From contig JAKIVZ010000011.1 of assembly GCA_022750295.1 (NCBI GenBank), positions 1 to 64,000 on the forward strand: 64,000 bases of DNA, in the 5' to 3' direction. A program made the translations under genes and the position numbers. Shown in pieces: positions 22,201 through 43,464 of the stretch (position 1 is the first letter of the stretch; every line of letters starts with the position of its first letter). This DNA is from Candidatus Lutacidiplasma silvani (GTDB lineage: Archaea > Thermoplasmatota > Thermoplasmata > Lutacidiplasmatales > UBA184). Below the pieces are notes generated by a model that saw only the letters and a list, made by a program, of their open reading frames with translations, did no database searches and had not been told where the DNA came from.

Positions 22201-22220
22201 CGCTCCCGCCGTCGGAATTC

Positions 22221-24455: not shown

Positions 24456-24525
24456 ATGGGTGCCGGCCGAGCCGGGTCCGGTCGAACCGAGGGGATGATA
24501 ATCCCCTGTCCCGCTCGAACCGGGT

Positions 24526-27086: not shown

Positions 27087-27416
27087 TCCACCTGAGGAGG
27101 TCGGTGGTCCTTATGTGAACCTAGGTGAGAGCCGTGGCGCGAGAACGGCTGGGGCCCGAAGGGGGCCCGATCCAGCGAGGCTCCCGTTCGCCGCCTCGGA
27201 GCGGAGCGCGAAGTTGCCGGGTGGTTCGGGAATGCACGCCCCGTTGGGTCAACTCGGCCCGGTGAGACGTCCCAGTCACGCGGCCCCATTCGGGGACGTT
27301 CGAGCGAGCCCGTTCCTCGACCGGCGGGGCAGGGGCGTTCGGCCAGGGTCCCGGCCCTTCCGAGTCTGAATGGTACACGTCACGTTCCAGGGCCGCCGGG
27401 TCGGGAGGGGGAATCG

Positions 27417-28043: not shown

Positions 28044-28452
28044 CCCCAATTCGAGGTTCGTGCGGTCGGCGAACCCCCGGGGGCCGTCCCCAGCCAACGG
28101 ATCGTTCGGGGTCCCGGGAGTCGTAGTTCCCGGCGGGTCAGCACGTGGGTGCCCCAGCGGTTTCCAGTCGGATCTGAGGCGCCGACAGCTGGGGTATCGG
28201 CCGGCCCCTCCGCAGCCCGGCCGGCCGTGGGGGGCCGGACGGCGGGGTGGCTCCCCCTTCCCCCGGGGTCGACGTCGAAGCGGATCGCCCGGGTTGGGGG
28301 GTCGGCCGGCCGGAAGCGCCGCAATGCGCCACGAATCCGCTCCAGGCGTCCGAGAGTGCCCGTCGACGCTCGACTGGTTGCCATAGTTCTGTGGCGGGCC
28401 GAGGTGCGAGCGTCGGGGTCGACACCGACCGGTCCGGCCGAGGGTGCGGAGT
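28044..28452. other. Gene-free stretch, 409 bp
   Basis: Between the broken RibD-like gene and the M29-like gene, open frames on both strands translate to low-complexity Pro/Gly/Arg sequence with no recognisable pattern. I see no RNA gene, repeat or promoter here. Confidence 0.45.
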
Positions 28453-29553: not shown

Positions 29554-29573
29554 GGCCGCTCGAATGCCGCCCC

Positions 29574-29584
29574 GGTATTTATCT
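29574..29584 (-). promoter_or_regulatory. TATA box of M29-like paralogue 2
   Basis: On the minus strand this reads AGATAAATACC, a strong archaeal TATA-type box. Its centre is 26 bases before the ATG at 29553, so the transcript is probably leaderless. The box fixes the start of that gene and excludes the longer reading from 29673. Confidence 0.65.
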
Positions 29585-29772
29585 CGTGAATGGGACTGCT
29601 CGTCGTTCCCTCTCGGTGAATTCCTCGGTCGAGGGCGTAGAGGGGGGGGCTTGGACTCGGAGTCCCGAGACACGGAGCGACCGGGCGGACCCCTCGGACT
29701 CGCGTTCCGTCGGCGCGTCCGGCTTCCGTTGGTGCCGCGATAGCGCCGCGGACCCTCAGGAGGAGCGGGGAA

Positions 29773-30900: not shown

Positions 30901-31198
30901 GCTAGGGCCCCCTAGTCAAGCCCACTACTTCTGCCGTCCCCGCCCGGGAAGTCGGGGTCCAAACCCGCGGTTCCGCCCATCCTCACGGTCGAGCCGATGG
31001 GAACTCCGGTCGGGGCGGGTACCGGCCCAGAGAACGGAGACGCGGAGCCGAGGGCCCCTGGGATCAACGGGCCAGGGCGGGCCAGCTGCAATGGTGGGGG
31101 TCTCGAGGGCCCAGAGCGGTTCCGGGCGTGCTCCCTGTCCGCCGCGCCGAGTCTCGCGCCCGACCGACGAAAGGCCACAGGCGTCGCTCGACTCGGCG
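30901..31198. other. Gene-free stretch, about 300 bp
   Basis: The interval between paralogue 3 and the DHFR-like gene contains no frame with a protein-like pattern and no repeat or RNA gene that I can recognise. It presumably carries the promoter of the M29-like gene. Confidence 0.4.
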
Positions 31199-31792
31199 TT
31201 AGGTGCGGAAGCCCCGAACTGTCTCGTAGTGGAGCATTAGCTCGCCGTCTTCCATGGGCTTGCACGAAAGCAGCTTGAGGGTCGCTTGCGCCTTCATAGG
31301 CCCCCAGTACTGCGGGCCCTTCCCGTAGACCACGGGCTGCACCACGAGCCAATAGTCGTCGGCAAGTCCTCGTCGGAGGAACTCGCGGATCAATCGCGGG
31401 CCCCCTTCGGCGATGATGTTGCCGCCTTTCTCGCGCTTCAATTTGGCCACGATCTTGGCGAGGTCGCCCTTCATAATTCGGGAGTTCTCCCATCCCGGCG
31501 ACTTCAGTCGGGTTGACAAGCAAACTTTGTCGACGTGGTCGAGCCACCGAGAGTAATCGATCAAGTACTTCGGGTCGCTCGGCTTGCGAGCCTTCTCGGT
31601 CCAGACGCGCCGGTGACCAACGAACGACCGTCGGCCCATGATGACCGTCGTGACATCGTCGAACCGATTCAGCCACATCTCGCGCCACATGTCGTTGGCC
31701 TCCGTCGTCTCCCGGTCCCAGCCGGGGTACTTCGGGAACGCGCCGCGGCCGTCTAGGGTAATGTACATACTGGCGGTGATTTTTCTTGACAT
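31199..31792 (-). CDS. RibD C-terminal / DHFR-like family protein
   Basis: The 197-residue protein has the family hallmarks: MSRKITASMYITLDGRGAFP at the start, the nucleotide-binding VTTVIMGRRSFVGH, SRIMKGDLAKIVAKLKREKG, NIIAEGGPRLIREFLRRGLA and VVQPVVYGKGPQYW. The fold binds NADPH and either reduces pyrimidine intermediates of riboflavin synthesis or dihydrofolate; stand-alone members like this are usually of unknown substrate. Its codons are less GC-biased than the neighbouring core genes (more AAG, TTC, AAT-type choices in the central part), in keeping with an acquired gene. A decayed relative lies at 27417. Confidence 0.85.
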   Translation of the reverse strand: MSRKITASMYITLDGRGAFPKYPGWDRETTEANDMWREMWLNRFDDVTTVIMGRRSFVGHRRVWTEKARKPSDPKYLIDYSRWLDHVDKVCLSTRLKSPGWENSRIMKGDLAKIVAKLKREKGGNIIAEGGPRLIREFLRRGLADDYWLVVQPVVYGKGPQYWGPMKAQATLKLLSCKPMEDGELMLHYETVRGFRT

Positions 31793-32193
31793 CGATTCTC
31801 CACTCTGCCCTCGGGTCGGCCGGTTCGGAATGGGCGCACTTGGCTTAGCCCTTTAATCCGGCCATCGACGGGGGGAGGATACCACGGAGAAGTCCGATCG
31901 GGGGGCCGGTGGTGTCGGGTTCGAACGGCTGCCGTCGTTTCGAGGGAACTCGAGCGGGTAAGCCCCGCCCGGACCCGCCTCGTCGTCACACGGGAGAGTG
32001 ACCGGGGACCATTGAGCGCCGCCGGCCTGACCGGCGTGCTTCCTGTCGATGCCCCTCTTTCTCCGAGGGAGGTCGGAGATCGGGTGGATGGATCGCCGGA
32101 TCGAGGTTCCCACGGGCCGGTGCCTCCTCCACCCTCGCCGCCGCGTCGGCGGGGTGGGCCGGCTCGGAGGTTCGGGATCGTGGGATCGGATTT

Positions 32194-32227
32194 CCTGTTA
32201 AGAAGGGGCAAGGCGTCTCCGATCCCT
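32194..32227. repeat. Hairpin repeat family, partial copy A
   Basis: CCTGTTAAGAAGGGGCAAGG and the following GCGTCTCCGATCCCT match the right half of the full repeats at 32365 and 33681 (core GGGGCAAGGCGTCTCCGA). The left hairpin arm is missing or diverged. The copy is intergenic. Confidence 0.55.
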
Positions 32228-32364
32228 CCCGCGGCTCCCCTCCGCCGTCGCGCGTCACGGCCGGTTCAACGCACGGAGCGATAGCGCCGTCGACGAACAA
32301 TCCGAGTCACCCCAAGTGCAGGCCGTCGGTGGCCCCCGAGGGGATTCGACGCGAGCCGGGGCCT

Positions 32365-32429
32365 CGCGGGTTGGTGACGAGCGTGCTCCCCTTTGTAAAA
32401 CAATCGGAGGCAGGGCGTCTCCAATCCCT
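32365..32429. repeat. Hairpin repeat family, copy B
   Basis: This 65-bp unit aligns without gaps to the unit at 33681-33745 (51 of 65 positions identical by eye). Both begin CGCG(G/A)GTTGGTGACG and end with a GGCGTCTCC-type segment, with an imperfect palindrome in between. In this copy the inner stem is TTGT/ACAA; in the other it is CTGTT/AACAG, one pair having changed on both sides. Confidence 0.6.
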
Positions 32430-32746
32430 CTGACCGTGACCGCCACGCGGATCGAGCCGGCCAAGAGTTCATCCGCTCGGGCGGATTCGAGGACCGGGCG
32501 GACCGACTAGTCCTCCTCGCAAGCTGGTCGCTCTCGAGTAGGACAGCGATCGGAGACCGCTCAAGCCTCGTGGCAATCGAGCGACAGTCGGCGCCGATGT
32601 TGCGCCCCACGCGATCTACGAGACTGGCGAAGCTGGGGAGGCCGGCCGGAGGTTGACCCGGATCCGGGCCGTGACTCGGGAGAGGCGCCGGCGACCCCTC
32701 GGGACCCCGCCGCGGTTCGGCGACCCGGTCCCTTGGTGTCGGAAGT

Positions 32747-33352
32747 CTACGGAAGTGCCGCCGAAATAGAGCCGGAGTACGCCGCGGTCCCGTAGACCAC
32801 TAGAGTGAGACCCGTGCCGCCGGGATTGGCTGCCGGATTCCCGAACTGGACCACGATGTCCATCGATGACTCGACCATCGTGGTTGCCGAGGCGCCGGCC
32901 CCGAAGTGTTGCCATGACCCCACGGCGAACGCCGAGTTCTTCGAAAGCTGTGAGTACGCGAGGACGGCGCCGTCCACCCCCACAATCGAGAGTCGCGCGT
33001 AGTTCTTCGTGACTTCCCACAACGTTCCGGTGGAGCTCACGACCTTGAACCCCAACCCTCCGAGTGTGACGCCGGAGGTGGCCGAGGCAACGGGCACGTT
33101 GTAGCAAGGGTGCGAGGTCTGGCAGAAGGCATTGGTAGACGACGTCCCCTGGACGGCCCGGGCTGGGCCGACGTACAGGCTGGTCCCCAGAGGCGGATGA
33201 GGTCCTCCGCTGTCGGTTAAGCGGGTGGTCACGACATAAAGGACTGCGGCGAGGACGACGACGATTGCCACCAGCAGAATCGTCGCGAGGATAGGGGTCA
33301 CGCCCCGCAGATCCCGCGGTTGCCGCAGCGCTTCGGTCAGGTGCCGCCTCAT
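32747..33352 (-). CDS. Type IV pilin-like secreted protein
   Basis: The 201-residue product begins with a short basic leader and a class III-type signal: RQPRDLRGVTPILATILLVA followed by a long hydrophobic helix (VVVLAAVLYVV). In archaeal pilins and related adhesins a prepilin peptidase cuts just before such a helix, which then packs in the filament core. The rest is Ser/Thr/Gly/Ala-rich beta sequence with one probable disulphide (FCQTSHPCYN), as in archaeal pilins. ATG 33352 is preferred to GTG 33361. A strong A/T-rich box (ACATATAAATGCATATG on the minus strand) lies about 90 bases upstream. No pilus assembly genes are nearby. Confidence 0.8.
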   Translation of the reverse strand: MRRHLTEALRQPRDLRGVTPILATILLVAIVVVLAAVLYVVTTRLTDSGGPHPPLGTSLYVGPARAVQGTSSTNAFCQTSHPCYNVPVASATSGVTLGGLGFKVVSSTGTLWEVTKNYARLSIVGVDGAVLAYSQLSKNSAFAVGSWQHFGAGASATTMVESSMDIVVQFGNPAANPGGTGLTLVVYGTAAYSGSISAALP

Positions 33353-33680
33353 CCTATACACTCATTCTGCCCGGCAACGGAATCCCGAGCCGGTCCCGCG
33401 GGGAGCAACCGGTCAGTCCGATTCGTGAGAACGAGTTCATATGCATTTATATGTATTGGTGAGGACGGGACGAGATCTGGACAGCTCTCACGCCGCTCAC
33501 GGGCGCGAGTCTCCACTCGACTGGGATCTCTTTCCAGCGAGCTGCGCCGTCGCGGGGGGCGGGCGGTAGCCGGTGTTCGGTCGTCGGGGAGCTTCTCGGC
33601 CGAGACCGGGAGGACGACGTTCCCCGTAGCGTGCCGAGCGAACCGCGGGGTTGAGCTCGGGCCAACCCGCGGGGTCCGCC

Positions 33681-33745
33681 CGCGAGTTGGTGACGGGGGT
33701 GCCCCCAGCTGTTTAACAGACGGGGGCAAGGCGTCTCCGAACCCT
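33681..33745. repeat. Hairpin repeat family, copy C
   Basis: The 65-bp unit contains the imperfect palindrome GCCCCC-AG-CTGTT-T-AACAG-AC-GGGGGC at 33701-33727. Twenty bases of it (TGCCCCCAGCTGTTTAACAG) recur exactly at 35309-35328, at the left border of the casposon, and at 40059-40078 at its right border. It lies about 90-150 bases before the small-gene cassette at 33831 and could be an operator or a mobile-element target. Confidence 0.65.
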
Positions 33746-33830
33746 GCAAGCTCTTCGAAAGGCGAGGACGAAGCAGCGGTAAGGGGCCTCGCGAGGCCGC
33801 GCGGGACGCGTGACCCGGCTTGCCGGCCCC

Positions 33831-34340
33831 ATGTCTCAAGACAAGTTCCAACGGAACGGGCGTTGCTTTCCGACGGAGAATGAGAGCCCTCTTATGGCGG
33901 GAATCGCTCGCGCTTTCGTGGCCGGCGAGCCTTCGCAGATCGCGGCCCTCCCGCCACCTCCATCCGCGCCGAGCCCTCCGGCGGGAGCGACTACTGGCGG
34001 CGCTCCTCCACAGGGAAAACCGCTCACGCCGGAGGACTGGGCGAACCTCGTCGAGACGTTCGGGCCCGTCGGGAAGTGGCTCGGCGAGCAGTGGCGGTGG
34101 AAGGTCGAAAAGGATGCCGAGGAGAACAAACGGGCTGCCGAGCACTCGTTCCGCGTGATTCTCAGCCTGATGGGGTTTCTCGCCGGGATTATCGCCGTAA
34201 TGTCGGTGCTCACCTACTACGGCCGGGTCAGCGGGGACGCTCTGCTGTTCCTCGTCGGAACGGTGAGCGGCGTCACATTGGTGATGATTCAGCGCTATCT
34301 GTTCGAGAGCGAGCCCGACGACTCGTCGAGCCTGCTGTAG
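33831..34340 (+). CDS. Two-helix membrane protein of unknown function
   Basis: The 169-residue protein has a Pro/Ala-rich N-terminal third, an amphipathic middle (WANLVETFGPVGKWLGEQWR, KVEKDAEENKRAAEHSFRVI) and two hydrophobic helices (LSLMGFLAGIIAVMSVLTYY and LLFLVGTVSGVTLVMIQRYL) before a short acidic tail. ATG 33831 is used; a GTG at 33810 and an ATG at 33894 are alternatives. Codon choice is less GC-extreme than in the core genes. It heads a cassette of three small genes on the same strand just left of the casposon; none has a recognised function. Confidence 0.65.
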   Translation: MSQDKFQRNGRCFPTENESPLMAGIARAFVAGEPSQIAALPPPPSAPSPPAGATTGGAPPQGKPLTPEDWANLVETFGPVGKWLGEQWRWKVEKDAEENKRAAEHSFRVILSLMGFLAGIIAVMSVLTYYGRVSGDALLFLVGTVSGVTLVMIQRYLFESEPDDSSSLL

Positions 34341-34386
34341 CCCGACGACGCTGCCCTCAATACCAAGGAAGCCGTCGGCCCGACGG

Positions 34387-34527
34387 ATGATTGCGGGCAT
34401 CTGCGACAAGTGCGGGAAGGAAACGACCAACCTCCGACGTTTTCCCCAAAGCGAACAGTCGTTGTGCCCGACGTGCCTCGCGGAGATGCGCGACTTCTTC
34501 GAGGTCCCGGAGGAAGAACGGACCTGA
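34387..34527 (+). CDS. Small zinc-ribbon protein, 46 residues
   Basis: The frame encodes MIAGICDKCGKETTNLRRFP followed by SLCPTCLAEMRDFFEVPEEE, a single CxxC...CxxC zinc ribbon of the type found in small archaeal and viral proteins. The start follows the membrane protein gene by 46 bases; the next gene starts five bases after the stop. The compact spacing suggests an operon. No specific function can be assigned. Confidence 0.65.
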   Translation: MIAGICDKCGKETTNLRRFPQSEQSLCPTCLAEMRDFFEVPEEERT

Positions 34528-34532
34528 GCGGG

Positions 34533-35114
34533 ATGGCGACCGTGGACTCCGATCTCACCCTGACACTCGTCGGAATCGCCATCGCGTTTTCGGCCCTCGC
34601 GTTCGGCGTTCTCGCGTGGCTCGGGCTCCTCTACGTTCCTGACAAGCTACGACTCGAACTGCTCGAACGTCCCTTCGGCGACGTGGACATAGTCAACCTT
34701 CGGCCTACGCCTGCGCGATTTTTCCACATCGCCGTCAGGAACACCGACGAGCGCCGGGTGGCCCGAAACTGCTACGCCTACCTCCAAAGCCTGAAGGACG
34801 CCGACAACGGCGAGGAGTTGGTCAAGCAAACCGCTGAGCTTCAGTGGCGCGGATACCCGGGCCACGCCAACGTCTCGATTCTGCCCAACTCCTTCAGGCA
34901 GTTCGACGCGTTCTGGGTGTTCAAGTCGGACCCCGAGCGGTTCATTCCGAACGCGATTCTTAGCTCGACCGAGCTACTCCCCACAGCGAAGAAAACGGGA
35001 GACCTGCTGGCGACCTACGTCGTGATTTGCGACAACTACAAGTCTCGGACCGTGCGCGCCCGCATCGACTTGGACAAGGACCTCGCCAAGGTCGGGCTCC
35101 ACCTGCTCTCGTAG
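34533..35114 (+). CDS. Single-pass membrane protein of unknown function
   Basis: The 193-residue protein has one N-terminal hydrophobic helix (TLVGIAIAFSALAFGVLAWL) and a soluble alpha/beta domain with features of a beta-sandwich (FFHIAVRNTDERRVARNCYA, VSILPNSFRQFDAFWVFKSD, DLLATYVVICDNYKSRTVRA). ATG 34533 comes five bases after the upstream stop and sits in GAGCGGG, a weak ribosome site. No family is recognised. It ends about 215 bases before the casposon and shares its relatively relaxed codon use, so it may belong to older mobile DNA. Confidence 0.65.
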   Translation: MATVDSDLTLTLVGIAIAFSALAFGVLAWLGLLYVPDKLRLELLERPFGDVDIVNLRPTPARFFHIAVRNTDERRVARNCYAYLQSLKDADNGEELVKQTAELQWRGYPGHANVSILPNSFRQFDAFWVFKSDPERFIPNAILSSTELLPTAKKTGDLLATYVVICDNYKSRTVRARIDLDKDLAKVGLHLLS

Positions 35115-35314
35115 CGCTCCGAGCGCCCCCGGGCCGCCCGTTCCCCCGCGCCCGCTCGCCCCGCCTCGCCGGGGCAGCGTTGGGGCGCTTGAGCGACCCC
35201 GCGCCGGGACGCTCCGAGCCCCCGAACGGCGAGATCGGCCGAGAAGAACTTCGCCTCGGGTTTTCGCCGGCCGGCCGTCGGAGAGGGTCGGGTCGGTGGT
35301 CGGTCTATGCCCCC

Positions 35315-35329
35315 AGCTGTTTAACAGAA
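35315..35329. repeat. Casposon target site duplication, left copy
   Basis: AGCTGTTTAACAGAA directly abuts the left inverted repeat and is repeated exactly at 40065-40079 next to the right one. Fifteen bases is the usual size for casposon target duplications (14-15 bp). Confidence 0.92.
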
Positions 35330-35388
35330 GGGGGCACCCCCCCCGCGCACCCCTGCCTTTCGACGGGATACAAGTAGGCGAAGATCGG
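35330..35388 (+). repeat. Casposon left terminal inverted repeat, 59 bp
   Basis: It begins GGGGGCACCCCCCCCGCGCA and ends AAGTAGGCGAAGATCGG, and is the exact reverse complement of 40006-40064. The match stops at the next base on the inside. The outermost 7 bases (GGGGGCA) mirror the TGCCCCC that precedes the left target copy, so the true outer edge could be argued by a few bases. Confidence 0.95.
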
Positions 35389-35424
35389 CGGCGGACGGCC
35401 CCCCATAGCGGCGGACGGGTTGGC

Positions 35425-35475
35425 GGACTCCAAGACCTATTGAGGAGAACTCCGCGCCCGAGGCCCCCCTCGGGT
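35425..35475 (+). repeat. Internal direct repeat of the casposon, copy 1
   Basis: The 51-bp unit starts GGACTCCAAGACCTATTGAG and continues GAGAACTCCGCGCCCGAGGC to CTCGGGT. A second copy lies at 35614-35663 and a third fragment (GGACTCCAAGGA) at 35665-35676. All lie in the first 350 bases of the element, before or between the first two genes. Confidence 0.75.
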
Positions 35476-35485
35476 CGGGCCCCCC

Positions 35486-35495
35486 TATTATTATG
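35486..35495 (+). promoter_or_regulatory. TATA-like box at the head of the casposon plus-strand genes
   Basis: TATTATTATG is the most A/T-rich stretch of the leader and ends about 13 bases before the ATG at 35509, with GGAG in between. It probably drives the plus-strand gene row; a similar GGATATATG at 35674-35682 stands before the second gene. Confidence 0.45.
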
Positions 35496-35508
35496 GAGAT
35501 ACCCCCAA

Positions 35509-35697
35509 ATGTCGGAACCGCCGAACCCGCAAACGACACAGATCGCGACAGTTGTCGCACCCTCCGTTCTCACGTCGGCAGAATGGCCTGTCGCGGGTGG
35601 GACTCGTCGGGAGGGACTCCAAGGTATTATGAGGAGAACTCCGCGCCCGAGGCCCCCTCGGGTTGGACTCCAAGGATATATGAAAGGTAAGCCGTAA
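35509..35697 (+). CDS. Casposon small protein, 62 residues
   Basis: The ATG at 35509 opens MSEPPNPQTTQIATVVAPSV and ends GVGLQGYMKGKP-like sequence just one base before the next ATG. GGAG lies 10 bases upstream. The second half of the frame is made of the internal repeat (GLQGIMRRTPRPRPP), so coding may be incidental to a regulatory repeat. No family is recognised. Confidence 0.4.
   Translation: MSEPPNPQTTQIATVVAPSVLTSAEWPVAGGTRREGLQGIMRRTPRPRPPRVGLQGYMKGKP
35614..35663 (+). repeat. Internal direct repeat of the casposon, copy 2
   Basis: The 50-bp unit matches 35425-35475 with one base fewer in the C run and a changed spacer (AAGGTATTATGAGG against AAGACCTATTGAGG). A/T-rich TATTATG within it could serve as a promoter element. 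Confidence 0.75.
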
Positions 35698-36255
35698 ATG
35701 GCGAACTACAAGAGGGCGGTTCCTACCGCCAGAACGACGAGCGAGCCAGCGACGAACGTGCCTGCGCCGATTTGGGACCGACTGAGCGAACCCCAGCGGG
35801 AGGTCGCCCGAAAGGCGGCCGAGTCTTGGCGGTGGCAAGGAGTGCCTGAGAATCACTTTCGGGTATCCCTTCCGCCCGACCACGATCCCAACTACGACGG
35901 GAACGCGGAGACGGCGCTTCGAGCCCACGCGCACAAGCTCGCCGATATGGACGAATGGGCGGGGCGCATTTGGGGCGGGATTGTAGGCGACACGGAACTC
36001 CCCGACCGTGGCAAGTCAAAGTCGGGACGGGCCTTTAGCGCCCTGAATGCCCCCCAACAGGCGGAATGCTTGAGCGGGGTCGTTCGGGCGCTCTTGGACG
36101 CCGACCTCTACGCGGAGTTTATCGCGGAGGCGGAGCGCGACCGCGCCGACCACCCCGCGCGGTGGGCCAAGGTCCTTCATGAGCGGGTGGACCCCAAGGT
36201 CCGAATCGCCATGCTTGAGGCACAGGTTGCCGCGCTTCAGGGGCTCAAGGCATGA
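35698..36255 (+). CDS. Casposon protein of unknown function, 185 residues
   Basis: The product is a soluble, mostly helical protein (PIWDRLSEPQREVARKAAES, FRVSLPPDHDPNYDGNAETA, ALRAHAHKLADMDEWAGRIW, LLDADLYAEFIAEAERDRAD). No catalytic or DNA-binding motif is recognisable. It is the largest small gene of the casposon; its stop overlaps the start of the next gene (ATGA), so the plus-strand genes are coupled. Roles such as accessory DNA binding are only possibilities. Confidence 0.7.
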   Translation: MANYKRAVPTARTTSEPATNVPAPIWDRLSEPQREVARKAAESWRWQGVPENHFRVSLPPDHDPNYDGNAETALRAHAHKLADMDEWAGRIWGGIVGDTELPDRGKSKSGRAFSALNAPQQAECLSGVVRALLDADLYAEFIAEAERDRADHPARWAKVLHERVDPKVRIAMLEAQVAALQGLKA

Positions 36256-36416
36256 GCGACGAATACGACTACTTTGAGCGGGACGGGAAGCTCTACCGAG
36301 TCAAGAAAGGGGCTCCGTCTCCCGTCGTCGTCAAGGCCCCTCCCGCCCCCGCCGAGCCCCCCGAGCCGAGCGAGCCCGAGCTTCCGTCCCACTATGGACG
36401 GGTTCGGATTCTTTAG
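36252..36416 (+). CDS. Casposon small acidic/proline-rich protein, 54 residues
   Basis: The frame starts MSDEYDYFERDGKLYRVKKG and continues with a Pro/Glu-rich stretch (APPAPAEPPEPSEPELP). Its ATG overlaps the upstream stop by four bases, the main support for it being translated. Nothing in it indicates a function. Confidence 0.55.
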   Translation: MSDEYDYFERDGKLYRVKKGAPSPVVVKAPPAPAEPPEPSEPELPSHYGRVRIL

Positions 36417-36424
36417 GCGGGTCC

Positions 36425-36898
36425 GTGCCTACGCTCGACCCCGCCAAGAAACGAGCCCAGCGAGCCCGCTATGAGGCCCGTCACCCCGAGCGGCGGGGAC
36501 GGGCCGCCCGAGCCTTCGGGGACGGCGTGGGCTCGGCGCCGACCCCACGGCGAGCCCCGAGCCCGAGCCCGACCCCGTTCCCGCGCCGAGCCCCGACCCC
36601 CGAGCCAGAGCGGGAGCCCAGCTTTGCGACGCGGGCCCTCGGTGCCCTGACGGGAGGGCTTAACGGCGCCATTCGGGAGGTGAACCGTGGCTCCTTCGCG
36701 GGAGATCGCGAGATACCCCGTCGGCAGGCGGCTGAGGCGGAGCGCACGGAGCGCCTACAGGCGCGCTTTGAGGCTGAGAGGGCCAACCGCATACGTTCGG
36801 AGGCTCAAGCCCGCGAGCGGGCCCGCCAAGGGGCCCTACTCGCAAGCGGCGCGGCCGAGGAGACCGAGGTTTGCGAATACGTCGGGGAGGCCGCATGA
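36425..36898 (+). CDS. Casposon basic protein with charged helical tail, 157 residues
   Basis: From a GTG at 36425 the product has a basic, helical N terminus (PAKKRAQRARYEARHPERRG), a Pro-rich linker (PSPSPTPFPRRAPTPEPERE), a short amphipathic part (FATRALGALTGGLNGAIREV) and a long charged helix (AAEAERTERLQARFEAERAN). The composition suits binding to nucleic acid or assembly into a complex; no family is recognised. The stop overlaps the start of the zinc-ribbon gene by four bases. Confidence 0.6.
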   Translation: MPTLDPAKKRAQRARYEARHPERRGRAARAFGDGVGSAPTPRRAPSPSPTPFPRRAPTPEPEREPSFATRALGALTGGLNGAIREVNRGSFAGDREIPRRQAAEAERTERLQARFEAERANRIRSEAQARERARQGALLASGAAEETEVCEYVGEAA

Positions 36899-37032
36899 GC
36901 GATTGTCAGCGGTGCGGGGCTCCCGCCGTCTCGGTATGGTCCGACGACCGCTCGGCGGCCTACAAGTGTCCCGAGTGCGAACGGGTTTGGGTAGGCCGAC
37001 CCGAGGGGAGACCCCATGTCAAGCGCGGCTGA
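36895..37032 (+). CDS. Casposon zinc-ribbon protein, 45 residues
   Basis: The frame reads MSDCQRCGAPAVSVWSDDRS and AAYKCPECERVWVGRPEGRP: two CxxC knuckles about 17 residues apart, a classic zinc ribbon. Start overlaps the upstream stop (ATGA) and the end overlaps the next start by 17 bases. It resembles small zinc ribbons found in many archaeal mobile elements and may bind DNA or the polymerase; that is inference. Confidence 0.65.
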   Translation: MSDCQRCGAPAVSVWSDDRSAAYKCPECERVWVGRPEGRPHVKRG

Positions 37033-37309
37033 ATCGAAGAAGCTCTACAACGTCGCCGAGCGCGACGCCTACCGATCTTGGGTCGCCCTTCATGGACCCG
37101 TCAGGGGCGGCCAAAAGGGCTTCCGCCGAATCCTGCGCGAACGCGGAATGAAGGTGCCCCATCACTATGCGAAGGGCAGCAAAAGCCCCGAGACGATAGA
37201 GGCCGAGCGCAAGTTCATCGAGGAAGGACTCGGGCGGCAGGGAGCTTACACAAAGCACCGTTACCCCGAGGCGGACGATATGGCGGAGACCGCCGACCGT
37301 GCCGTTTAG
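37016..37309 (+). CDS. Casposon protein of unknown function, 97 residues
   Basis: The product (KKLYNVAERDAYRSWVALHG, RGGQKGFRRILRERGMKVPH, KSPETIEAERKFIEEGLGRQ) is basic and helical, possibly with a helix-turn-helix-like middle, but no family is recognised. It ends inside the start of the polymerase gene (overlap of 11 bases), so it is transcribed and probably translated together with it. Confidence 0.6.
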   Translation: MSSAAESKKLYNVAERDAYRSWVALHGPVRGGQKGFRRILRERGMKVPHHYAKGSKSPETIEAERKFIEEGLGRQGAYTKHRYPEADDMAETADRAV

Positions 37310-39218
37310 TCCCGAACGAAAGAAGGCATACGATAAGGGACGGCGGCGGAGCGGCCGTCACATTCGGCGCGCCGACCGCCCCTTTGTGGGGGTTGACGGG
37401 GAAGGCTGGGGCAAGACCTACGCGCTCCTGGCCGACTCGGGGGGACACTCGCTCACTCGGCCGAGCGGGATATCGAGCCAAGAGGCGTTCGACTGGCTGA
37501 GCTACCTACCCGAGCGGAACGGGGAGGCTAACTTTGTCGGCTTCGCGCTCGGCTATGATATCAATCACTGGCTCCGCGACCTATCGAGTGCGGCGCTCTA
37601 TCGGCTATGGAGGGAGGGGCGCGTTCGGTGGGAAGATTGGTGGATCGAGTGGGCTCCCGCGCGGTGGTTCCATGTCAAGCACCTTCCGAGCGGGCGGTCG
37701 GTTCGGATATGGGACTCTTTCTCGTTCTTTCAAGGGTCGTTTCTCAAGGCGTGCGCCGAGTGGGGCGTAGAGGTCCCGCCCGAGGTCACGGCGGGGAAGG
37801 CGGCGCGGGGGGGATTCACCGTCGCCGACCTACCCGCTATCGAGAGTTACAATCGGACCGAGCTTGCGTGTCTCGTTGAACTGTTAGGCAAACTCCGCGC
37901 GGGTATGCGTGCGGCGGGAATCGAGCTATCCCAGTGGTATGGCGCGGGTGCGGCGGCGACATGGCTCATGTCGTCGCACGGTGCGAAGGCCGCTAACCCC
38001 GCCCTCCCCCCAGAGGTCGAGGCGGCGGCGCTCGGCGCGTATTTCGGCGGACGAATCGAGGCGGGGAAAACGGGGCACGCCGAAGGGCCGATAGAGAATT
38101 TGGACATGAGGTCGGCCTACCCCGACGCTATGCGGAGGCTCCCGAACCTTGGGAGCGGTCGGTGGGAGCGGACGACGGCGGAGCCGAAACTCGTTCCGCT
38201 CTACGATATGGCGGTCTATCGGGTCGAGTGGGACTATCCCCACGGCTGGCCCTACTATCCGCTCCCTTGGCGGTCGAAAGAAGGCGCGATCTATTTCCCG
38301 AGGGTCGGGCGCGGCTGGTATTGGGTTCCCGAGGTCACGGCGGCTATCCTTACGGCCCGCCAATACGGCGGGACGGTCAAGCTCCTTGACGGCTGGCGGT
38401 TCATCCCGACGGACCCGAACGAGCGGGCGTTCCCGTGGGTCGAAGGTCTCTACGGCAAGCGCCGAGAGGTCGGCTCAAAGACGGGGGCGGGGCTCGCTAT
38501 CAAGCTCGCCATTAACGCGCTCTATGGAAAGACGGCGCAACGGACGGGGGTTTTCAAGCGGACCCCCACCTATCGGAACTGGGCTTACGCGGGCTACATT
38601 ACGTCGCACGTCCGCTCCATGCTTTGGCGCATGAGTTGGGACGATTGGGACCGCGTGATCGCGTTTGCCACCGACGGAATCTATCGGTATCCGAGAATCC
38701 TCGGGCCGTGGGGCGAGGACGGCAAAGCCAAGCTCGGGACTTGGGAGCGGAGCCTCTACGCGGAAGGCGACTGGGTAATGGCTGGAGTCTATCGCGTTCG
38801 CAAGGACGACGGCTCATGGGAGCTATTCGGGCGGGGCTATGGTAAGACGGGCGTGCCGTGGGACCGAGTAATCGCGGGCTGGGCCGACGGAACCGACAAA
38901 CTCACAGTTACGGTTTCGCGGTTTCACACTCTCGGCGAGTGTATCCACGTCTCGCGCGGGCGGCCGTGGGTCGATAGGGAGCGGTGGCGATCTTGGACCG
39001 ACGAGCCCAAGGAGATTCGGCTCCGCGAGCCGTCGCTCAAGCGAATAGGGGCGGAGCCGTTCGACCCCCAGTTTGGAGTCCCGTCCGACTCGGCGCCGCA
39101 CTCGCCGAGGTCGAACACCGAAGGACTACCCGCTCAACGAACCGAGCAAGCTCTTTCTCGGGAAACGAGCGAGCGAACCCTTCAACGAGACGCCGACCAG
39201 CTTGAGGCCGAAGCCTGA
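37299..39218 (+). CDS. polB: Casposon family B DNA polymerase (protein-primed type)
   Basis: The 639-residue protein has all exonuclease and polymerase motifs. Exo I is VDGEG (Asp33, Glu35), Exo II is FVGFALGYDINHW (Asp87) and Exo III lies at YNRTELACLVEL. Motif A is LDMRSAYPDAM (about residue 268), motif B KLAINALYGKTAQ, and motif C FATDGIYR, with TDG in place of the usual DTD. The size and the DMRSxYP / NALYGK / TDG set match the short B-family enzymes of mobile elements and viruses. It would copy the element from its ends. The GTG start overlaps the upstream gene. The last 60 codons overlap the casposase gene on the other strand. Confidence 0.92.
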   Translation: MPFSPERKKAYDKGRRRSGRHIRRADRPFVGVDGEGWGKTYALLADSGGHSLTRPSGISSQEAFDWLSYLPERNGEANFVGFALGYDINHWLRDLSSAALYRLWREGRVRWEDWWIEWAPARWFHVKHLPSGRSVRIWDSFSFFQGSFLKACAEWGVEVPPEVTAGKAARGGFTVADLPAIESYNRTELACLVELLGKLRAGMRAAGIELSQWYGAGAAATWLMSSHGAKAANPALPPEVEAAALGAYFGGRIEAGKTGHAEGPIENLDMRSAYPDAMRRLPNLGSGRWERTTAEPKLVPLYDMAVYRVEWDYPHGWPYYPLPWRSKEGAIYFPRVGRGWYWVPEVTAAILTARQYGGTVKLLDGWRFIPTDPNERAFPWVEGLYGKRREVGSKTGAGLAIKLAINALYGKTAQRTGVFKRTPTYRNWAYAGYITSHVRSMLWRMSWDDWDRVIAFATDGIYRYPRILGPWGEDGKAKLGTWERSLYAEGDWVMAGVYRVRKDDGSWELFGRGYGKTGVPWDRVIAGWADGTDKLTVTVSRFHTLGECIHVSRGRPWVDRERWRSWTDEPKEIRLREPSLKRIGAEPFDPQFGVPSDSAPHSPRSNTEGLPAQRTEQALSRETSERTLQRDADQLEAEA

Positions 39219-39918
39219 GGCCGTGACCGAATACCTCCCCGAAATCCCGAGAGTTTAGCTTCTCCTTGACGGCGAGGGCGGTCTTGACGGTCGCGGCGCG
39301 GAAGGGCTCCATCACGTCATAGACCAAGGCGGATTTGTAATTCTGCGGGACGTGGAGGAACCCGACGGACGGCTCAAGGGAGGCGCGATGGATAGCAAGC
39401 CGAGCCCGCGAGCCAAGGAGCCCGAAGGCGTAGTTTATCGTCGCGTTCGTTGGGTCGCGGGCGTTCGGGTAGTCGCGCGTGATACCGAGGTCGGCCCAGA
39501 ATCGGACGGCTTGCCGACCCTCAAACGTCAGCAGATCGTCCCACGTTCGGTAGGCCGACGGAACGTCGCCGACCTTGGCCTCAAGGATGAATCGTGCGAC
39601 CGCGAGCCGAGACTCGGGGTTGAGGTAGGCCGCTATCTGCGCGAGCCGTGCGTTCGGGTTGATGGGACATTCGGGGAGCCACTGGCCGAGGACGGTCCCG
39701 TTGAAATCGAGGGCCGTTAGGGATACCCCGTTCGTTGCCAGCCAGCGGAGGGCGGGGAAAGTGACGAACCCGCCGAGGTGTTCTACGATAATCGAGTCGA
39801 ACGGAAAATCGACGGGGAGCCATTCCTTCCGCTCGCCCGAGTCCTGATTCAGTAGGACCAAACGGCGGTCTTTGGTCTTGAGGCACGTCCCCCAATCCGT
39901 TAGAAGGAGGGGCTTCAT
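39037..39918 (-). CDS. cas1: Casposase (Cas1-family integrase)
   Basis: The 293-residue protein is a Cas1 homologue: N-terminal beta domain (VLLNQDSGERKEWLPVDFPF, DSIIVEHLGGFVTFPALRWL) and a helical catalytic domain with Glu133 (LLTFEGRQAVRFW), the NATINYAFGLLGSRARLAIH core, His189 (SVGFLHV) and Asp201/Glu204 (LVYDVMEPFR). These are the metal-binding residues of Cas1 and casposase. In a casposon it catalyses integration of the ends with a 14-15 bp target duplication, exactly what flanks this element. No cas2 or CRISPR array accompanies it. The final 60 residues overlap the polymerase gene and are Ser/Pro-rich past about residue 268; ATG 39918 follows a purine-rich leader. Confidence 0.95.
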   Translation of the reverse strand: MKPLLLTDWGTCLKTKDRRLVLLNQDSGERKEWLPVDFPFDSIIVEHLGGFVTFPALRWLATNGVSLTALDFNGTVLGQWLPECPINPNARLAQIAAYLNPESRLAVARFILEAKVGDVPSAYRTWDDLLTFEGRQAVRFWADLGITRDYPNARDPTNATINYAFGLLGSRARLAIHRASLEPSVGFLHVPQNYKSALVYDVMEPFRAATVKTALAVKEKLNSRDFGEVFGHGLRLRPQAGRRLVEGFARSFPEKELARFVERVVLRCSTSASAAPSRTGLQTGGRTAPPLFA

Positions 39919-40005
39919 GGCCGCGCTCGGGGCGGCGCGGACACTCTTTCGTTCGGGCTTTGGCGCAAGCTAAGGCTCGGGCGGATGGGCCACACACCCG
40001 CCCCA

Positions 40006-40064
40006 CCGATCTTCGCCTACTTGTATCCCGTCGAAAGGCAGGGGTGCGCGGGGGGGGTGCCCCC
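40006..40064 (-). repeat. Casposon right terminal inverted repeat, 59 bp
   Basis: The plus strand reads CCGATCTTCGCCTACTTGTA and ends GGGGGGGGTGCCCCC. It is an exact reverse complement of 35330-35388, including the run of eight G. It begins 88 bases upstream of the casposase start, so the casposase promoter lies between. Confidence 0.95.
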
Positions 40065-40079
40065 AGCTGTTTAACAGAA
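40065..40079. repeat. Casposon target site duplication, right copy
   Basis: AGCTGTTTAACAGAA matches 35315-35329 exactly. Its inner part, GTTTAACAGAA (40069-40079), is also one arm of an inverted repeat whose other arm is TTCTGTTAAAC at 40108-40118. Confidence 0.92.
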
Positions 40080-40118
40080 CATACACCAAACTAATATAGT
40101 CGTTAAATTCTGTTAAAC
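40069..40118 (+). promoter_or_regulatory. Promoter and operator-like inverted repeat of the ribbon-helix-helix gene
   Basis: GTTTAACAGAA (40069-40079) and TTCTGTTAAAC (40108-40118) are perfect 11-bp inverted arms. Between them lies CTAATATAGT (40091-40100), a TATA-type box whose centre is about 26 bases before the GTG at 40122, so the transcript is probably leaderless. The arms bracket the core promoter, as expected for autoregulation by a ribbon-helix-helix dimer pair. The casposon's target duplication includes the left arm. Confidence 0.62.
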
Positions 40119-40121
40119 GCC

Positions 40122-40520
40122 GTGCGAACGGCCCACGAGCCCCCCCGCTCCGACCACTTCCTCGGCGTCCGACTGACGGCCGAGGAGGTCGAGCAGCTCG
40201 ACCGGTTCCGGACTCGCTCGGGTTCGTCGACCCGATCCGATGCGGTGCGCGCCCTGGTGCGCGACTCGGAGAAGGTCGGCACCCAAGCGAGCGAGATCCC
40301 GGTCGCGCTGCTCGCGAAGCTGGAGGAGGTCGTCGAGGACGGTTGGGTCACGGATCTGGACGGGGCGGTGTCCCTGCTTCTGACTCTGGGGCTCAGCGAG
40401 TTCTCGCGACTGCACGCCGACCGGCTTCCCAAGCTGCGCCAAACAGCGCGGGACGGAGAGAGCCGGCGACGCGACCGGACCCAACTCGACCGGAAGGGAC
40501 GGGGGTTGCTCGACCGCTAG
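40122..40520 (+). CDS. Ribbon-helix-helix transcriptional regulator
   Basis: The 132-residue product has a CopG/NikR-like ribbon-helix-helix near its N terminus: DHFLGVRLTAEEVEQLDRFR then SGSSTRSDAVRALVRDSEKV. A helical middle part follows (ALLAKLEEVVEDGWVTDLDG, AVSLLLTLGLSEFSRLHADR) and an Arg-rich tail. Such dimers bind inverted repeats. The GTG start is supported by the TATA-like box 26 bases upstream. The flanking 11-bp inverted arms are a candidate operator. It lies outside the casposon, directly to its right. Confidence 0.85.
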   Translation: MRTAHEPPRSDHFLGVRLTAEEVEQLDRFRTRSGSSTRSDAVRALVRDSEKVGTQASEIPVALLAKLEEVVEDGWVTDLDGAVSLLLTLGLSEFSRLHADRLPKLRQTARDGESRRRDRTQLDRKGRGLLDR

Positions 40521-40544
40521 TTCGCGCGGGCGGAACGTGGTTGC

Positions 40545-40772
40545 ATGGAGACTTTGGGGATTGCCTGGAGCCAACGGAGCGGATTCATTTGCCGACTGTG
40601 CCGTCAGGACGCCAAGCATAATGAGGTGCTCCACATCTCATTCTGCCCCGTCCACGGGTTGAGCTCGCCGATCGACGCGCTCCCCTGGCGACCGGAGGCT
40701 CGAACCGTACGCGGCTCTATACCCGGACCGGCGACCGCGGCGAGACCGGTCTCAACGGCGGTGCCCGCGTAA
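40545..40772 (+). CDS. Small Cys/His protein overlapping the adenosyltransferase 5' end
   Basis: The frame reads METLGIAWSQRSGFICRLCR and DAKHNEVLHISFCPVHGLSS, with a CxxC...H...CxxH arrangement that could bind zinc, then degenerates into Pro/Ala sequence as it overlaps the cobalamin adenosyltransferase in another frame. It may be a true small protein whose real end is uncertain, or the upstream part of a damaged locus. It follows the regulator gene by 24 bases. Confidence 0.4.
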   Translation: METLGIAWSQRSGFICRLCRQDAKHNEVLHISFCPVHGLSSPIDALPWRPEARTVRGSIPGPATAARPVSTAVPA

Positions 40773-41260
40773 GCAAGGCGTCCGCGCGGATCGCCGCCTT
40801 CGGCACGTTCGACGAGCTCGGCGCCTTCCTGGGCGCCGCCGAGGCGTCGCTCCCCGCCGGGGAGACGGAGGTCCGCGCCCTCCTCGTCCGACTGCAGCAC
40901 CAGCTGTACGTCGCGATGAGCGAGCTCGCGACCCCGCCGTCGGCCAAGCAGCCGGCTCGGCGAATCTCCGCCCGTCATGTCACGGAGCTTGAGGGGCTCA
41001 TCGACCAGTACGCCGGGTCGATCGAGCCCGTCCACGCCTTTGTACTCCCCCGGGGAACGCCGGCAGGAGCCGGACTGCACGTCGCCCGGACCGTCTCCCG
41101 GAGGGCCGAGCGGGAACTCTGGAACCTCCACGAGGAGGCGCCCCAACGCGAAGAGCTTCTCCAGTGGGCGAATCGGTTGAGCGACCTTCTCTTCGCCGTC
41201 GCGTTGGTCGTGAACCGCACCGCCGGGTTTGCTGAGATCTCCCCTGACTATTCCGTCTAA
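40685..41260 (+). CDS. pduO: Cob(I)alamin adenosyltransferase, PduO type; start codon unresolved
   Basis: The product contains the ATP-binding N terminus TRLYTRTGDRGETGLNGG, the ARVSKASARIAAFGTFDELG segment, and the C-terminal signature RTVSRRAERELWNLHEEAPQ and LLQWANRLSDLLFAVALVVN. The enzyme transfers adenosyl from ATP to cob(I)alamin to make coenzyme B12. Homologues begin within a few residues of YTRTGD, but here no ATG, GTG or TTG lies between the TGA at 40622 and that motif. CTG at 40685 is the best candidate and is used here. A small indel or assembly error near 40700 is the alternative, which would link it to the frame from 40545. The gene is followed closely by the YchF-type GTPase. 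Confidence 0.82.
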   Translation: MATGGSNRTRLYTRTGDRGETGLNGGARVSKASARIAAFGTFDELGAFLGAAEASLPAGETEVRALLVRLQHQLYVAMSELATPPSAKQPARRISARHVTELEGLIDQYAGSIEPVHAFVLPRGTPAGAGLHVARTVSRRAERELWNLHEEAPQREELLQWANRLSDLLFAVALVVNRTAGFAEISPDYSV

Positions 41261-41275
41261 GCGGGCGGCGGGATC

Positions 41276-42472
41276 ATGGAGGTCGGGGTCGTCGGCAAAC
41301 CGAACGTGGGAAAATCGACCCTGTTCAACGCCCTCACCCTCCTCGACGTTCCCGTCGCTCCCTACCCGTTCACGACCCTCAAACCGAACCGCGGGGTCGC
41401 GGCGGTCCGCGTCCTATGCCCCCACGCCGAGCGCGGCGGACCGTGCACCCCGGGCAACGCGAAATGCGTCGACGGGGTCCGTTGGGTGCCGGTCAGCCTC
41501 ATCGACGTGCCGGGGCTCGTCCCGGGTGCGCACGAGGGGAAGGGGCTCGGCCATGAATTCCTCGACGAGCTCCGGGGGGCCTCCGGCTTCCTGCAGATCG
41601 TGGACGGAGCCGGAGCCACGGCCCCGGACGGGGTCCCCGCGACCCCGGGGTCGTTCGACCCCGCCGAGGAAGTCGCCTGGCTCGACGAGGAGCTGGTCGC
41701 GTGGGTCACCGAGATCCTCTCGCGGGACTTTGTCCGACTCTCGAAGTCGATCGAGCTCGTCGGGGGGCCTGTCGAGGAGCTGCTCCAGTCCCGCCTGACC
41801 GGGCTTTCCATCACGCCCGGCCACATCGCCGCGGCGCTCCGCGAAACCCCCGTCGACCGGGCCCACCCGGCCCGGTGGACCGACGCCGAGCGGCGGGAGC
41901 TCGCGCGGGCCCTCCTCCGGACCTCGAAGCCGCGATGGGTCGCGTGGAACAAGGCGGACCGGACCACCCCGGAGAAGGTCGCGGAACTTTCGGAACGAAT
42001 CGCGCCGATCGGGTCGACGCCGACGTCGGCCGAGGCGGAGCTCACCTTGCGAAAGGCCCAGCGGGCCGACCTCGTTCGGTACGTCCCGGGGGCCGGGAGC
42101 TTCGAGTTGGTCGATGCGGACCGGCTCAACGCCGGCCAGCGCCGCGCGCTCGACGAGATCCGGACGATCCTGAAGACGTGGGGGTCCACGGGAGTCCAGG
42201 CGGCCTTCGAGCGGCTCGTCTTCGACGGACTTCACCAGATCGTCGTCTACCCGGTCGAGGACGAGCAGAAGTGGACCGACTCGAAGGGGCGCCTCCTTCC
42301 CGATGCGTTCCTGGTCCCGGTCGGAACCCCCGCCCGGGCGTTCGCGTACCGGATCCACACGGACCTGGGGGAGAATTTCCTCAAGGCCGTCGACGCCCGA
42401 ACGCACCGGGCCCTGGCCGCCGAGCATCCGCTCGAGTCGGGGGCGGTCGTGCGGATCGTCACCCGCCGCTAG
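41276..42472 (+). CDS. ychF: YchF/OLA1-type GTP- or ATP-binding protein
   Basis: The 398-residue protein has G1 GKPNVGKSTLFNALTL, switch residues PYPFTTLKPNRG, G3 DVPGLVPGAHEGKGLGHEFL, G4-like NKAD, an inserted helical domain (about 150-250) and a C-terminal TGS domain (IVVYPVEDEQKWTDSKGRLL, AYRIHTDLGENFLKAV). The cysteines CPHAERGGPCTPGNAKC in the switch region are typical of archaeal members. The family binds ribosomes and is conserved across life, but its precise job is unsettled. It overlaps the mevalonate kinase gene tail to tail by four bases. Confidence 0.92.
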   Translation: MEVGVVGKPNVGKSTLFNALTLLDVPVAPYPFTTLKPNRGVAAVRVLCPHAERGGPCTPGNAKCVDGVRWVPVSLIDVPGLVPGAHEGKGLGHEFLDELRGASGFLQIVDGAGATAPDGVPATPGSFDPAEEVAWLDEELVAWVTEILSRDFVRLSKSIELVGGPVEELLQSRLTGLSITPGHIAAALRETPVDRAHPARWTDAERRELARALLRTSKPRWVAWNKADRTTPEKVAELSERIAPIGSTPTSAEAELTLRKAQRADLVRYVPGAGSFELVDADRLNAGQRRALDEIRTILKTWGSTGVQAAFERLVFDGLHQIVVYPVEDEQKWTDSKGRLLPDAFLVPVGTPARAFAYRIHTDLGENFLKAVDARTHRALAAEHPLESGAVVRIVTRR

Positions 42473-43464
42473 GGCGGTTCGACGACCTGCTCGTCCGGTG
42501 GCGCGCTCACAAGCGAGGCCCCCCTCGGCTCCGGGCGGACCACGAACGGGAGGCCGCCGGCCCGGGCCATCCGCCGCGCCGCCTCGAGCTCCCGACCGGG
42601 GAGCGGGAGGACGACCACCGAGCCGCCCGCCCCGGCCCCGGTGAGCTTGCCTCCGACCATCGATTCCCGGGCCGCGGCGAGGAGCGCCTCGAGCCGGGGG
42701 TGGGAGACCCCGACCTTCCCGAGGAGCGCGTGGTTCGCGTCGAGGCACCGGCCGACGGCCGCCCGGTCCTCGCCCTGGACCGCGGCGATCCCCTCCTCCG
42801 CGACCCGCTGGAACTCCTCGAGGAGGCTCGGTCCATCCGGCTCGGCGAGACGTCGTCCGACGGCCCGGACCGCGTCGGCCGTGCTGCGCGGGAGCCCCGA
42901 GTAGGCGACCACCCACGACCAAGACGGGTCGGGAATCCTCCGCGCCGTCCAGGACCGGTCCCCCTCCGCAAACTGGAATACGGTGTCGCCGCCGGGGCCA
43001 TTCAGGGAAAGGTATCCCCCGCCGACGGCCGCCGCGGTGTCCCCGGGACTTCCGACGCCCTGGGCCCCGCGCTCGATGGCGAACGCCCGTTCGGCGAGCT
43101 CGGTACGAGCGACCCCACCCCGGGCGGCGGAGAGTCCGGCCGCGATCGCCGCGGAGAACGCGGCGCTGGAACCGAGCCCGGCGGCCCGGGGGACCCGGGA
43201 GTTCACGCGGATCTCGAGCGGGGCCCCTCCGGGCCAGAGCCGTTCGAGCGCCGTCCGATAGTACGGGTTCGTCGTCGATGCGTCCGGGTCGCCGTTCAGC
43301 CGACCGACGGGGGCCGCCCGGATCCCCACCTGGACGGGAAGGTCGATCGCGAGGACGAGCTCGGGACGGCCGTGGACCACCGCGTGCTCGCCGAACAGGA
43401 TGCACTTGCCCGGGGCCCGGGCCGCGAGGGGGAGCGCCGCGGCCGGGATCGGGTCGCCGCTCAT
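42469..43464 (-). CDS. mvk: Mevalonate kinase (GHMP family)
   Basis: The 331-residue protein carries the three GHMP motifs: APGKCILFGEHAVVHGRPEL, the ATP-binding PRAAGLGSSAAFSAAIAAGL and GKLTGAGAGGSVVVL. It phosphorylates mevalonate at C5 in the cytoplasm for isoprenoid lipid synthesis. Catalytic Asp lies in the GSPGDTAAAVGGG region. It is the last gene of the rpl44e operon, overlapping trm56 by four bases. Some Thermoplasmata use mevalonate 3-kinases instead; this sequence fits the classical kinase best. Confidence 0.9.
   Translation of the reverse strand: MSGDPIPAAALPLAARAPGKCILFGEHAVVHGRPELVLAIDLPVQVGIRAAPVGRLNGDPDASTTNPYYRTALERLWPGGAPLEIRVNSRVPRAAGLGSSAAFSAAIAAGLSAARGGVARTELAERAFAIERGAQGVGSPGDTAAAVGGGYLSLNGPGGDTVFQFAEGDRSWTARRIPDPSWSWVVAYSGLPRSTADAVRAVGRRLAEPDGPSLLEEFQRVAEEGIAAVQGEDRAAVGRCLDANHALLGKVGVSHPRLEALLAAARESMVGGKLTGAGAGGSVVVLPLPGRELEAARRMARAGGLPFVVRPEPRGASLVSAPPDEQVVEPP

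Follow-up and report, generated by a model that had tools for sequence, protein, structure and literature searches.

A complete compact casposon beside a row of elements with casposon-type ends at a probable shared target in a Lutacidiplasmatales archaeon

Casposons combine a casposase (i.e., a Cas1 apart from the Cas1 of clustered regularly interspaced short palindromic repeats, CRISPR), a family B DNA polymerase (PolB), terminal inverted repeats (TIR) and a target-site duplication (TSD) of 14–15 bp, and it is from them that the CRISPR adaptation machinery has been proposed to derive. Family 1 casposons, from Nitrosopumilus and other Thaumarchaeota (PMC4046053; PMC6563490, in excerpt), possess a compact Cas1 with no added domain, a PolB of the protein-primed type and several small genes 5′ of polB, and tandem insertion is reported for NitNF5-C1/C2 in the excerpted text. 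Those of family 2, from Aciduliprofundum boonei and Methanosarcina, show site-specific tandem insertion. Here, we describe a complete casposon at positions 35330..40064 of a 64,000-nucleotide stretch, hereafter the window (positions 1 to 64,000 of contig JAKIVZ010000011.1, assembly GCA_022750295.1), from Candidatus Lutacidiplasma silvani, a soil archaeon of the Thermoplasmatota. We consider it probable that this casposon occupies the promoter side of a row whose elements were all inserted by casposases at one operator-like site located 5′ of a ribbon-helix-helix (RHH) gene. The comparison set consists of 78 genomes of the genus (G numbers; L numbers designate loci), which are incomplete metagenome-assembled genomes (MAGs); the source genome, G000, is 91% complete.

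The window casposon shares with family 1 the compact Cas1, the type of polymerase, the TIR, the TSD and the tandem insertion, and it has five small open reading frames (ORFs) 5′ of polB, where family 1 has 3–4 small genes in common. This likeness is one of architecture, thaumarchaeal Cas1 being outside our tree; no thaumarchaeal casposase was named among the best 120 of the 743 matches of the third protein search. It differs by its host, in the Thermoplasmatota, and by its target, which is an upstream operator-like site and not the ef-2 gene. The 14–15 bp TSD and the site-specific tandem insertion are common to family 2, whereas the window Cas1 has no C-terminal helix-turn-helix (HTH), no HNH was found, the polymerase is of the phi29 type and the length is 4.7 kb, against the 6–16 kb given for family 2 (PMC4046053). 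The first-pass annotation had placed the archaeon probably outside the lineages in which casposons were first described; this was only partly right, as A. boonei, given as one of the Thermoplasmatales, belongs to the first set in the excerpted text of PMC4046053.

CRISPR arrays with Cas1–Cas2 have in common with the row a Cas1-type integrase, a leader beside the site, short repeats produced by duplication and units set one after the other. On the contrary, the units are here mostly genes and not spacers, the repeats measure 15 bp, no CRISPR-like tandem repeat was found in the window and neither cas2 nor cas4 was matched in it with four cas2 and two cas4 queries, a weak test. In integrons, gene cassettes, mostly of one gene each, are lined up at a fixed site, as are the elements described here, which differ by their casposon-type ends and 15-bp duplications; no tyrosine recombinase was seen among the proteins scanned, attC sites being outside that search. 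The engineered mini-casposon of Methanosarcina mazei (PMC10359463, in excerpt) also consists of a cargo without cas1 between casposon ends, moves in vivo and forms tandems, but it is artificial, whereas the cassettes are natural. Casposons in tandem are already known (PMC4046053; PMC9939771 and PMC6563490, both in excerpt), and what distinguishes the present case is a target of the upstream-operator type, together with cassettes that form arrays in nature. The literature searched contained no paper combining the order name Lutacidiplasmatales with casposon and no description of casposase-type gene-cassette arrays, two key casposon-mobility papers being outside that latter search.

A complete compact casposon

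The element (4735 bp) displays the four defining anatomical features of casposons. Its left TIR of 59 bp (35330..35388, + strand) equals the reverse complement of the right one (40006..40064, − strand) at 59 of 59 positions, the mismatch falling at position 60. It is inserted between two copies of the target, T1 (AGCTGTTTAACAGAA, 35315..35329, +) and T0 (40065..40079, +), the latter on the leader side, i.e., that of the presumed RHH promoter. T1 and T0 agree at 15 of 15 positions, while at least 14 of 15 was reached by none of 1800 random spans (best random span, 13). Since the left flank TGCCCCC repeats the final 7 bases of the right TIR, the direct repeat extends to 22 bp. The first-pass annotation had called a casposon of 4.7 kb with a Cas1, a PolB, identical 59-bp inverted repeats and a 15-bp duplication, lacking both the HNH nuclease and the helicase of many relatives, and each of these calls was borne out: neither an HNH nor a helicase was matched among the five casposon ORFs of at least 97 amino acids (aa), the 54- and 45-aa ORFs being outside the scan.

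From left to right, the element carries ORFs of 185 aa (35698..36255, +), 54 aa (36252..36416, +), 157 aa (36425..36898, +; Pro/Arg-rich), 45 aa (36895..37032, +; with two CxxC motifs) and 97 aa (37016..37309, +), then polB (37299..39218, +; 639 aa), whose 3′ end overlaps the convergent cas1 (39037..39918, −; 293 aa). No family was found above the cut-off for the 185- and 157-aa ORFs, and those of 54 and 45 aa were read from the sequence. The 97-aa ORF, immediately 5′ of polB and overlapping it, has a 59% match over 76 aa in G051 and is, by its position, a candidate terminal protein. A 44-nucleotide repeat (89%; 35425–35468 and 35614–35657) lies 5′ of the first gene and possibly represents promoter copies.

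Cas_Cas1 of Pfam (E 2.8e-29) is the sole domain detected in the 293 aa of the casposase. The best match in the PDB is 6opm, the M. mazei casposase, by sequence (E 1.9e-23) and by fold (E 1.2e-19), and the AlphaFold2 model has a mean predicted local distance difference test (pLDDT) of 90, residues 275–293 being below 50. E133, H189 and D201, the residues singled out in the first-pass annotation, are indeed invariant across 17 aligned sequences (window included), and so is E204. The active site in the M. mazei structure is E162/H232/E247 (PMC6977970, in excerpt). Because E204 lies 15 residues past His189, the spacing of the M. mazei casposase, it is more likely than D201 to be the third catalytic residue when counted along the 6opm alignment. 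A Cas1 64% identical to that of the window is present in MAG SubAcS15-120, which a table of PMC9287336 (in excerpt) lists under the Lutacidiplasmatales, and one 98% identical has been reported on a 49 kb JGI contig (P0001).

The tree that the first-pass annotation had proposed keeps the window Cas1 apart from CRISPR Cas1. Among its 51 rows (16 of the about 49 compact proteins found, the window protein, that of G047 and a selection of others), a 98/96 branch separates 11 Cas1 adjoining cas2 from the window Cas1, which falls within an 18-row compact clade (support 100/99). The side of the window Cas1 also includes HTH-type and bacterial Cas1, under labels assigned by us, the HTH-type being the group nearest the compact clade (93/88, not a starred branch). 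A CRISPR-associated Cas1 was ruled out by this tree, together with the lack of a cas2 match and of a repeat array.

The polymerase matches DNA_pol_B_2 (E 2.8e-6) and the phrog DNA polymerase (E 3.8e-36); by fold it comes closest to the phi29 protein-primed polymerase, from which protein priming is predicted. Its matches among phage records, another difference from family 1, are 14 actinobacteriophages with genomes of 15–18 kb (29–32% identity), which we take to be tailless. A broken polymerase was considered, as motif C reads ATDG, and rejected: T458 and D459 are invariant in a 19-row alignment while the preceding residue varies, so that ATDG appears to be a family trait.

A row of elements at one operator-like site

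The first-pass annotation had recognized the casposon as a single element and missed its tandem neighbours (32204–35314), as well as a third exact copy of AGCTGTTTAACAGA at 33707. We distinguish three types of ends, alpha (GGGGGCANGGCGTCTCC), beta (GGGGGCACCCCCNNCACCAAC) and gamma (with GACCACCGACCC). The nearest neighbour, el3 (33722..35314, 1593 bp), has an alpha-type left end and a gamma-type right end and contains two ORFs (33810–34340 and 34410–35114). Next to it, el2 (32406..33706, 1301 bp), alpha-type on the left and beta-type on the right, contains a single pilin-like ORF (32747–33361, −; Pilin_N 23.2 bits, below the cut-off of 25.2). The last one, el1 (32204..32388, about 185 bp), is a short element or remnant where no ORF was found and whose ends resemble those of el2. 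Each of the three opens with a GGGGGCA-like end and closes with a TGCCCCC-like end (with changes in el1 and el2), and no cas1 or polB match was obtained within them.

The junctions are occupied by copies of the target: T1, then T2 (AGCTGTTTAACAGAC, 33707..33721, +), T3 (32389..32405, +; degraded) and T4 (32189..32203, +; the most degraded). Leftward, they agree with the leader copy T0 at 15, 14, 9 and 8 of 15 positions at best, the last two scores being weak when taken alone (57 window positions score at least 9); the TSD of el3 amounts to 14/15 at register 0 and to 15/15 when shifted by one. In window 20001–35400, ten operator hexamers were found at the four junctions and nowhere else, and AGCTGTTTAACAGA has exactly three copies in the source genome, all in the window, two at the casposon ends and one at 33707. 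A strict rule by which the copy nearest to the leader is the youngest fits the window and was rejected, since it fails in G109 and G110.

On the right, the row ends at the leader (40080..40121, +), the presumed RHH promoter, which recurs in the genus, and at the RHH (CopG-like) gene itself (40122..40520, +). The region 5′ of this gene, which is the target, contains a TGTTTAACA core together with a TATA-like stretch and a second operator-like TTCTGTTAAACG, a layout suggestive of an autoregulated promoter. The RHH gene was found in 67 of the 78 genomes (25/25 of the good ones), and to its right lies ordinary chromosome (cobalamin adenosyltransferase, GTPase, GHMP kinase). A tRNA was rejected as the window target, no tRNA being found in the window and no Rfam match in 29000–43000.

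The same site is used elsewhere in the genus. Exact beta ends have 8 matches in the 78 genomes, all 8 upstream of the RHH gene, and with at most one mismatch 12 of 16 matches are found there (reversed control, 0). For exact alpha ends, 9 of the 11 matches are upstream of the RHH gene, one is elsewhere (G010) and one is in G015, where no RHH was found. Of the 63 genomes examined, 18 have an alpha or beta end abutting the operator; among 12,400 control positions drawn at random from the upstream regions, 32 have one, and several of these are junctions themselves. These 63 genomes are the 67 with an RHH gene minus G013, G035, G040 and G059 (upstream not fetched or too short); the operator was mis-anchored in G112 and G016, and the alpha end of G112, seen by eye, is outside the 18. 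In 25/63 genomes, four consecutive C are found no more than 10 bases from the operator, for a background of 5%. In viral contigs, the beta pattern gave one exact match, without RHH, cas1 or polB match in its 9.2 kb and taken as chance, and the casposon search one distant match only.

A locus with the same genes throughout the relatives, the pattern that the first-pass annotation had set against its own reading, is not observed: a full-length compact casposase is found in 5/78 genomes, G044 having a broken fragment. It lies directly at the RHH site in G000, G105 and G047, 3.4 kb upstream on the same contig in G038, and elsewhere in G050. The casposons of G047 (alpha) and G105 (beta-like) terminate at the same operator as that of the window, and in G038 a beta end abuts the operator, the stretch up to the casposase containing one other operator-like hexamer, without end motifs. 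An HFX_2341/DUF6293-type regulator lies there between casposase and operator (L013, 2897–3667, −); a CARF protein is reported to affect casposon cas1 in M. mazei.

Repeated operators with C- and G-rich flanks might also form a regulatory array of the RHH protein instead of being traces of insertion, and the operator-like core is similarly placed in most of the 63 genomes, with or without element ends. This explanation is hardly credible, because the sequence between copies varies in length, genes and orientation among genomes, and unlike cargoes have exact 15-bp duplications on either side, one of them at an unrelated site (G038:C74).

Cassettes and the origin of the row

Across the genus, the delimited elements without cas1 or polB contain mostly one ORF (as given by a simple ORF caller) and measure mostly about 1–4 kb, G107 E1 reaching 12.9 kb with several ORFs. 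A TSD of at least 14/15 flanks 8 of 18 delimited elements and none of 1800 controls. Besides the window casposon, these eight comprise six elements lacking both cas1 and polB, as well as one 17-bp unit. Casposon-type ends, a 15-bp TSD and the absence of cas1 and polB, by which we propose to define non-autonomous cassettes, are found together in G005, G018 and G038:C74 (15/15), in el3 (15/15 shifted by one) and in G112 and G109 E3 (14/15). The cassettes of G018 (1.52 kb) and G109 (2.4 kb) carry an M29-type peptidase gene between alpha ends, the latter below the Pfam cut-off; other cargo includes an A4 peptidase (G109), a cyclase-TPR protein (G033) and a terpene-cyclase-like protein (G112, below cut-off). 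The element of G038:C74 (L135, 3717–6196; 2,480 bp) has a near-beta end and sits, with a perfect TSD, at a different palindromic site, ATTTCCACTGGAAAA. The 17-bp unit (GGGGGTATCCCCGCCCC), spacer-like in size, lies about 4.25 kb upstream of the RHH gene of G109 (L088), between identical 15-bp target copies. Solo TIRs are known in M. mazei.

The neighbours of the window casposon could be remnants of older complete casposons, in which case the casposon would be a plain single one and the genes in the row chance leftovers of the host. Tandem and decaying casposons have been published for M. burtonii and Methanosarcina (PMC4046053; PMC9939771 and PMC6563490, in excerpt), and element B of G000:C16, at tRNA-Val, retains a truncated casposase. 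We nevertheless regard this origin as unlikely: the elements of G005, G018, G112 and G038:C74, with a TSD of 14–15/15, each contain, within about 1–2.5 kb, one ORF that is neither cas1 nor polB, tblastn found no copy of these two genes in them, and the M29-type peptidase gene recurs between alpha ends in two genomes.

Alternatively, the cassettes could belong to another mobile system, with its own transposase or recombinase, the casposon merely using the same operator. The compact casposase is not seen in most array-bearing genomes and left and right ends are often unlike, two facts that speak for such a system. It is quite improbable, however, given that the casposon ends in G047 and G105 are of the cassette types, that perfect 15-bp TSDs flank casposons and cassettes alike, and that no transposase or recombinase was found above the cut-off in 20 proteins (some of them flanking) and the two el3 ORFs, in a scan that left out the ORFs of G005, G110, G032, G107 E1 and G038:C74.

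The preferred explanation remains serial insertion of the row by casposases at the RHH operator, and several observations weigh against it. The enzyme that would have moved the elements is unseen in most of the array-bearing genomes, which are incomplete MAGs, and several elements have the unlike ends just mentioned; cassette ends share about 7–22 bp with each other and with the casposon TIRs, and in 10 of the 18 delimited elements the flanking copies agree at 8–13 of 15 positions, which overlaps the control range. Four of the 16 beta matches with at most one mismatch are elsewhere than at the RHH site, and alpha ends at the same tolerance give 43 matches against 19 for the reversed control, the inexact ones away from RHH being largely chance. 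The decay of the target with distance from the leader is absent in G109 and G110, the RHH assignment stands at the Pfam cut-off (RHH_1, 20.6 bits for 20.5), and the left part of the casposon is unseen in G038, G047, G050 and G105 (contig ends or no end found). The empty site of the window insertion, proposed as a check in the first-pass annotation, was found in 0/78 genomes and 0 viral contigs; the recent movement suggested there fits the perfect ends, and lacks this counterpart. As for the tree, three rows without cas2 match (L010, L011 and L126) are on the CRISPR side, none of the rows is a published casposase, 6opm being the link to these, and the casposase labels are based on length, on the 6opm match and, for some, on PolB or inverted ends nearby.

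In the mechanism that we propose, the end common to the elements (GGGGGCA... on the left, ...TGCCCCC on the right) would be bound by the casposase, for which the leader adjoining the site, i.e., the presumed RHH promoter, would serve as a guide. Both ends would be joined 15 bp apart and repair would copy the operator to either side. Every insertion would restore operator and leader on the RHH side and leave the RHH gene intact; because of this, the same spot could be reused, giving a growing row comparable to a CRISPR array. Copying of the casposon would depend on the phi29-like polymerase that it encodes. The elements devoid of casposase with the same kind of ends (cassettes and smaller remnants) may be moved in trans, a mode of movement that fits the shared TGCCCCC end. 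For the A. boonei casposase, a leader motif is required and, of the TIR, no more than the five terminal nucleotides (PMC6614799, in excerpt), so that short shared ends could suffice. What the sequences show directly is the anatomy, the kinship, the ends and the site in common, the target duplications and the repeated use of that site within the genus; activity, movement in trans, leader recognition and polarity are what we infer for this system.

We give roughly even chances to a broader proposal, namely that the casposases of Lutacidiplasmatales run a natural gene-capture system, integron-like, in which casposons and one-gene cassettes are added serially at a fixed leader, each duplicating the 15-bp repeat, and in which units shrunken to 17 bp resemble a step between casposon tandems and CRISPR arrays. 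If true, a Cas1 that assembles unlike units into ordered arrays at a leader would represent such a step and a natural model for the origin of CRISPR-like arrays, and soil archaea would possess a new route of gene gain. Units, repeat, leader and a complete casposon being side by side, with 78 genomes of the genus at hand, a 293-aa enzyme without adjoining cas2 lends itself to tests of how targets are chosen, how ends are recognized and how arrays grow.

A second hotspot and a neighbouring gene

To the left of the row, an M29-type peptidase gene lies at 29773–30900 (−). Among 42 related loci searched, 14 have a homologue 5′ of the RHH gene, with no constant spacing or orientation, and in two cases it lies inside an alpha-ended element.

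A second hotspot is located in the source genome on the 3′ side of tRNA-Val(cac), where two tandem elements with GGGGGGCATCCCCC ends occupy positions 4816–10708 of L025 (G000:C16:66000-82000). The truncated casposase of element B is of the HTH type, and the same element contains a 798-aa ORF, PKD-like in look. The stretch of G024 that carries an HTH-type casposase and a PolB also has a similar end directly beside tRNA-Val(cac), a candidate end for that casposon.

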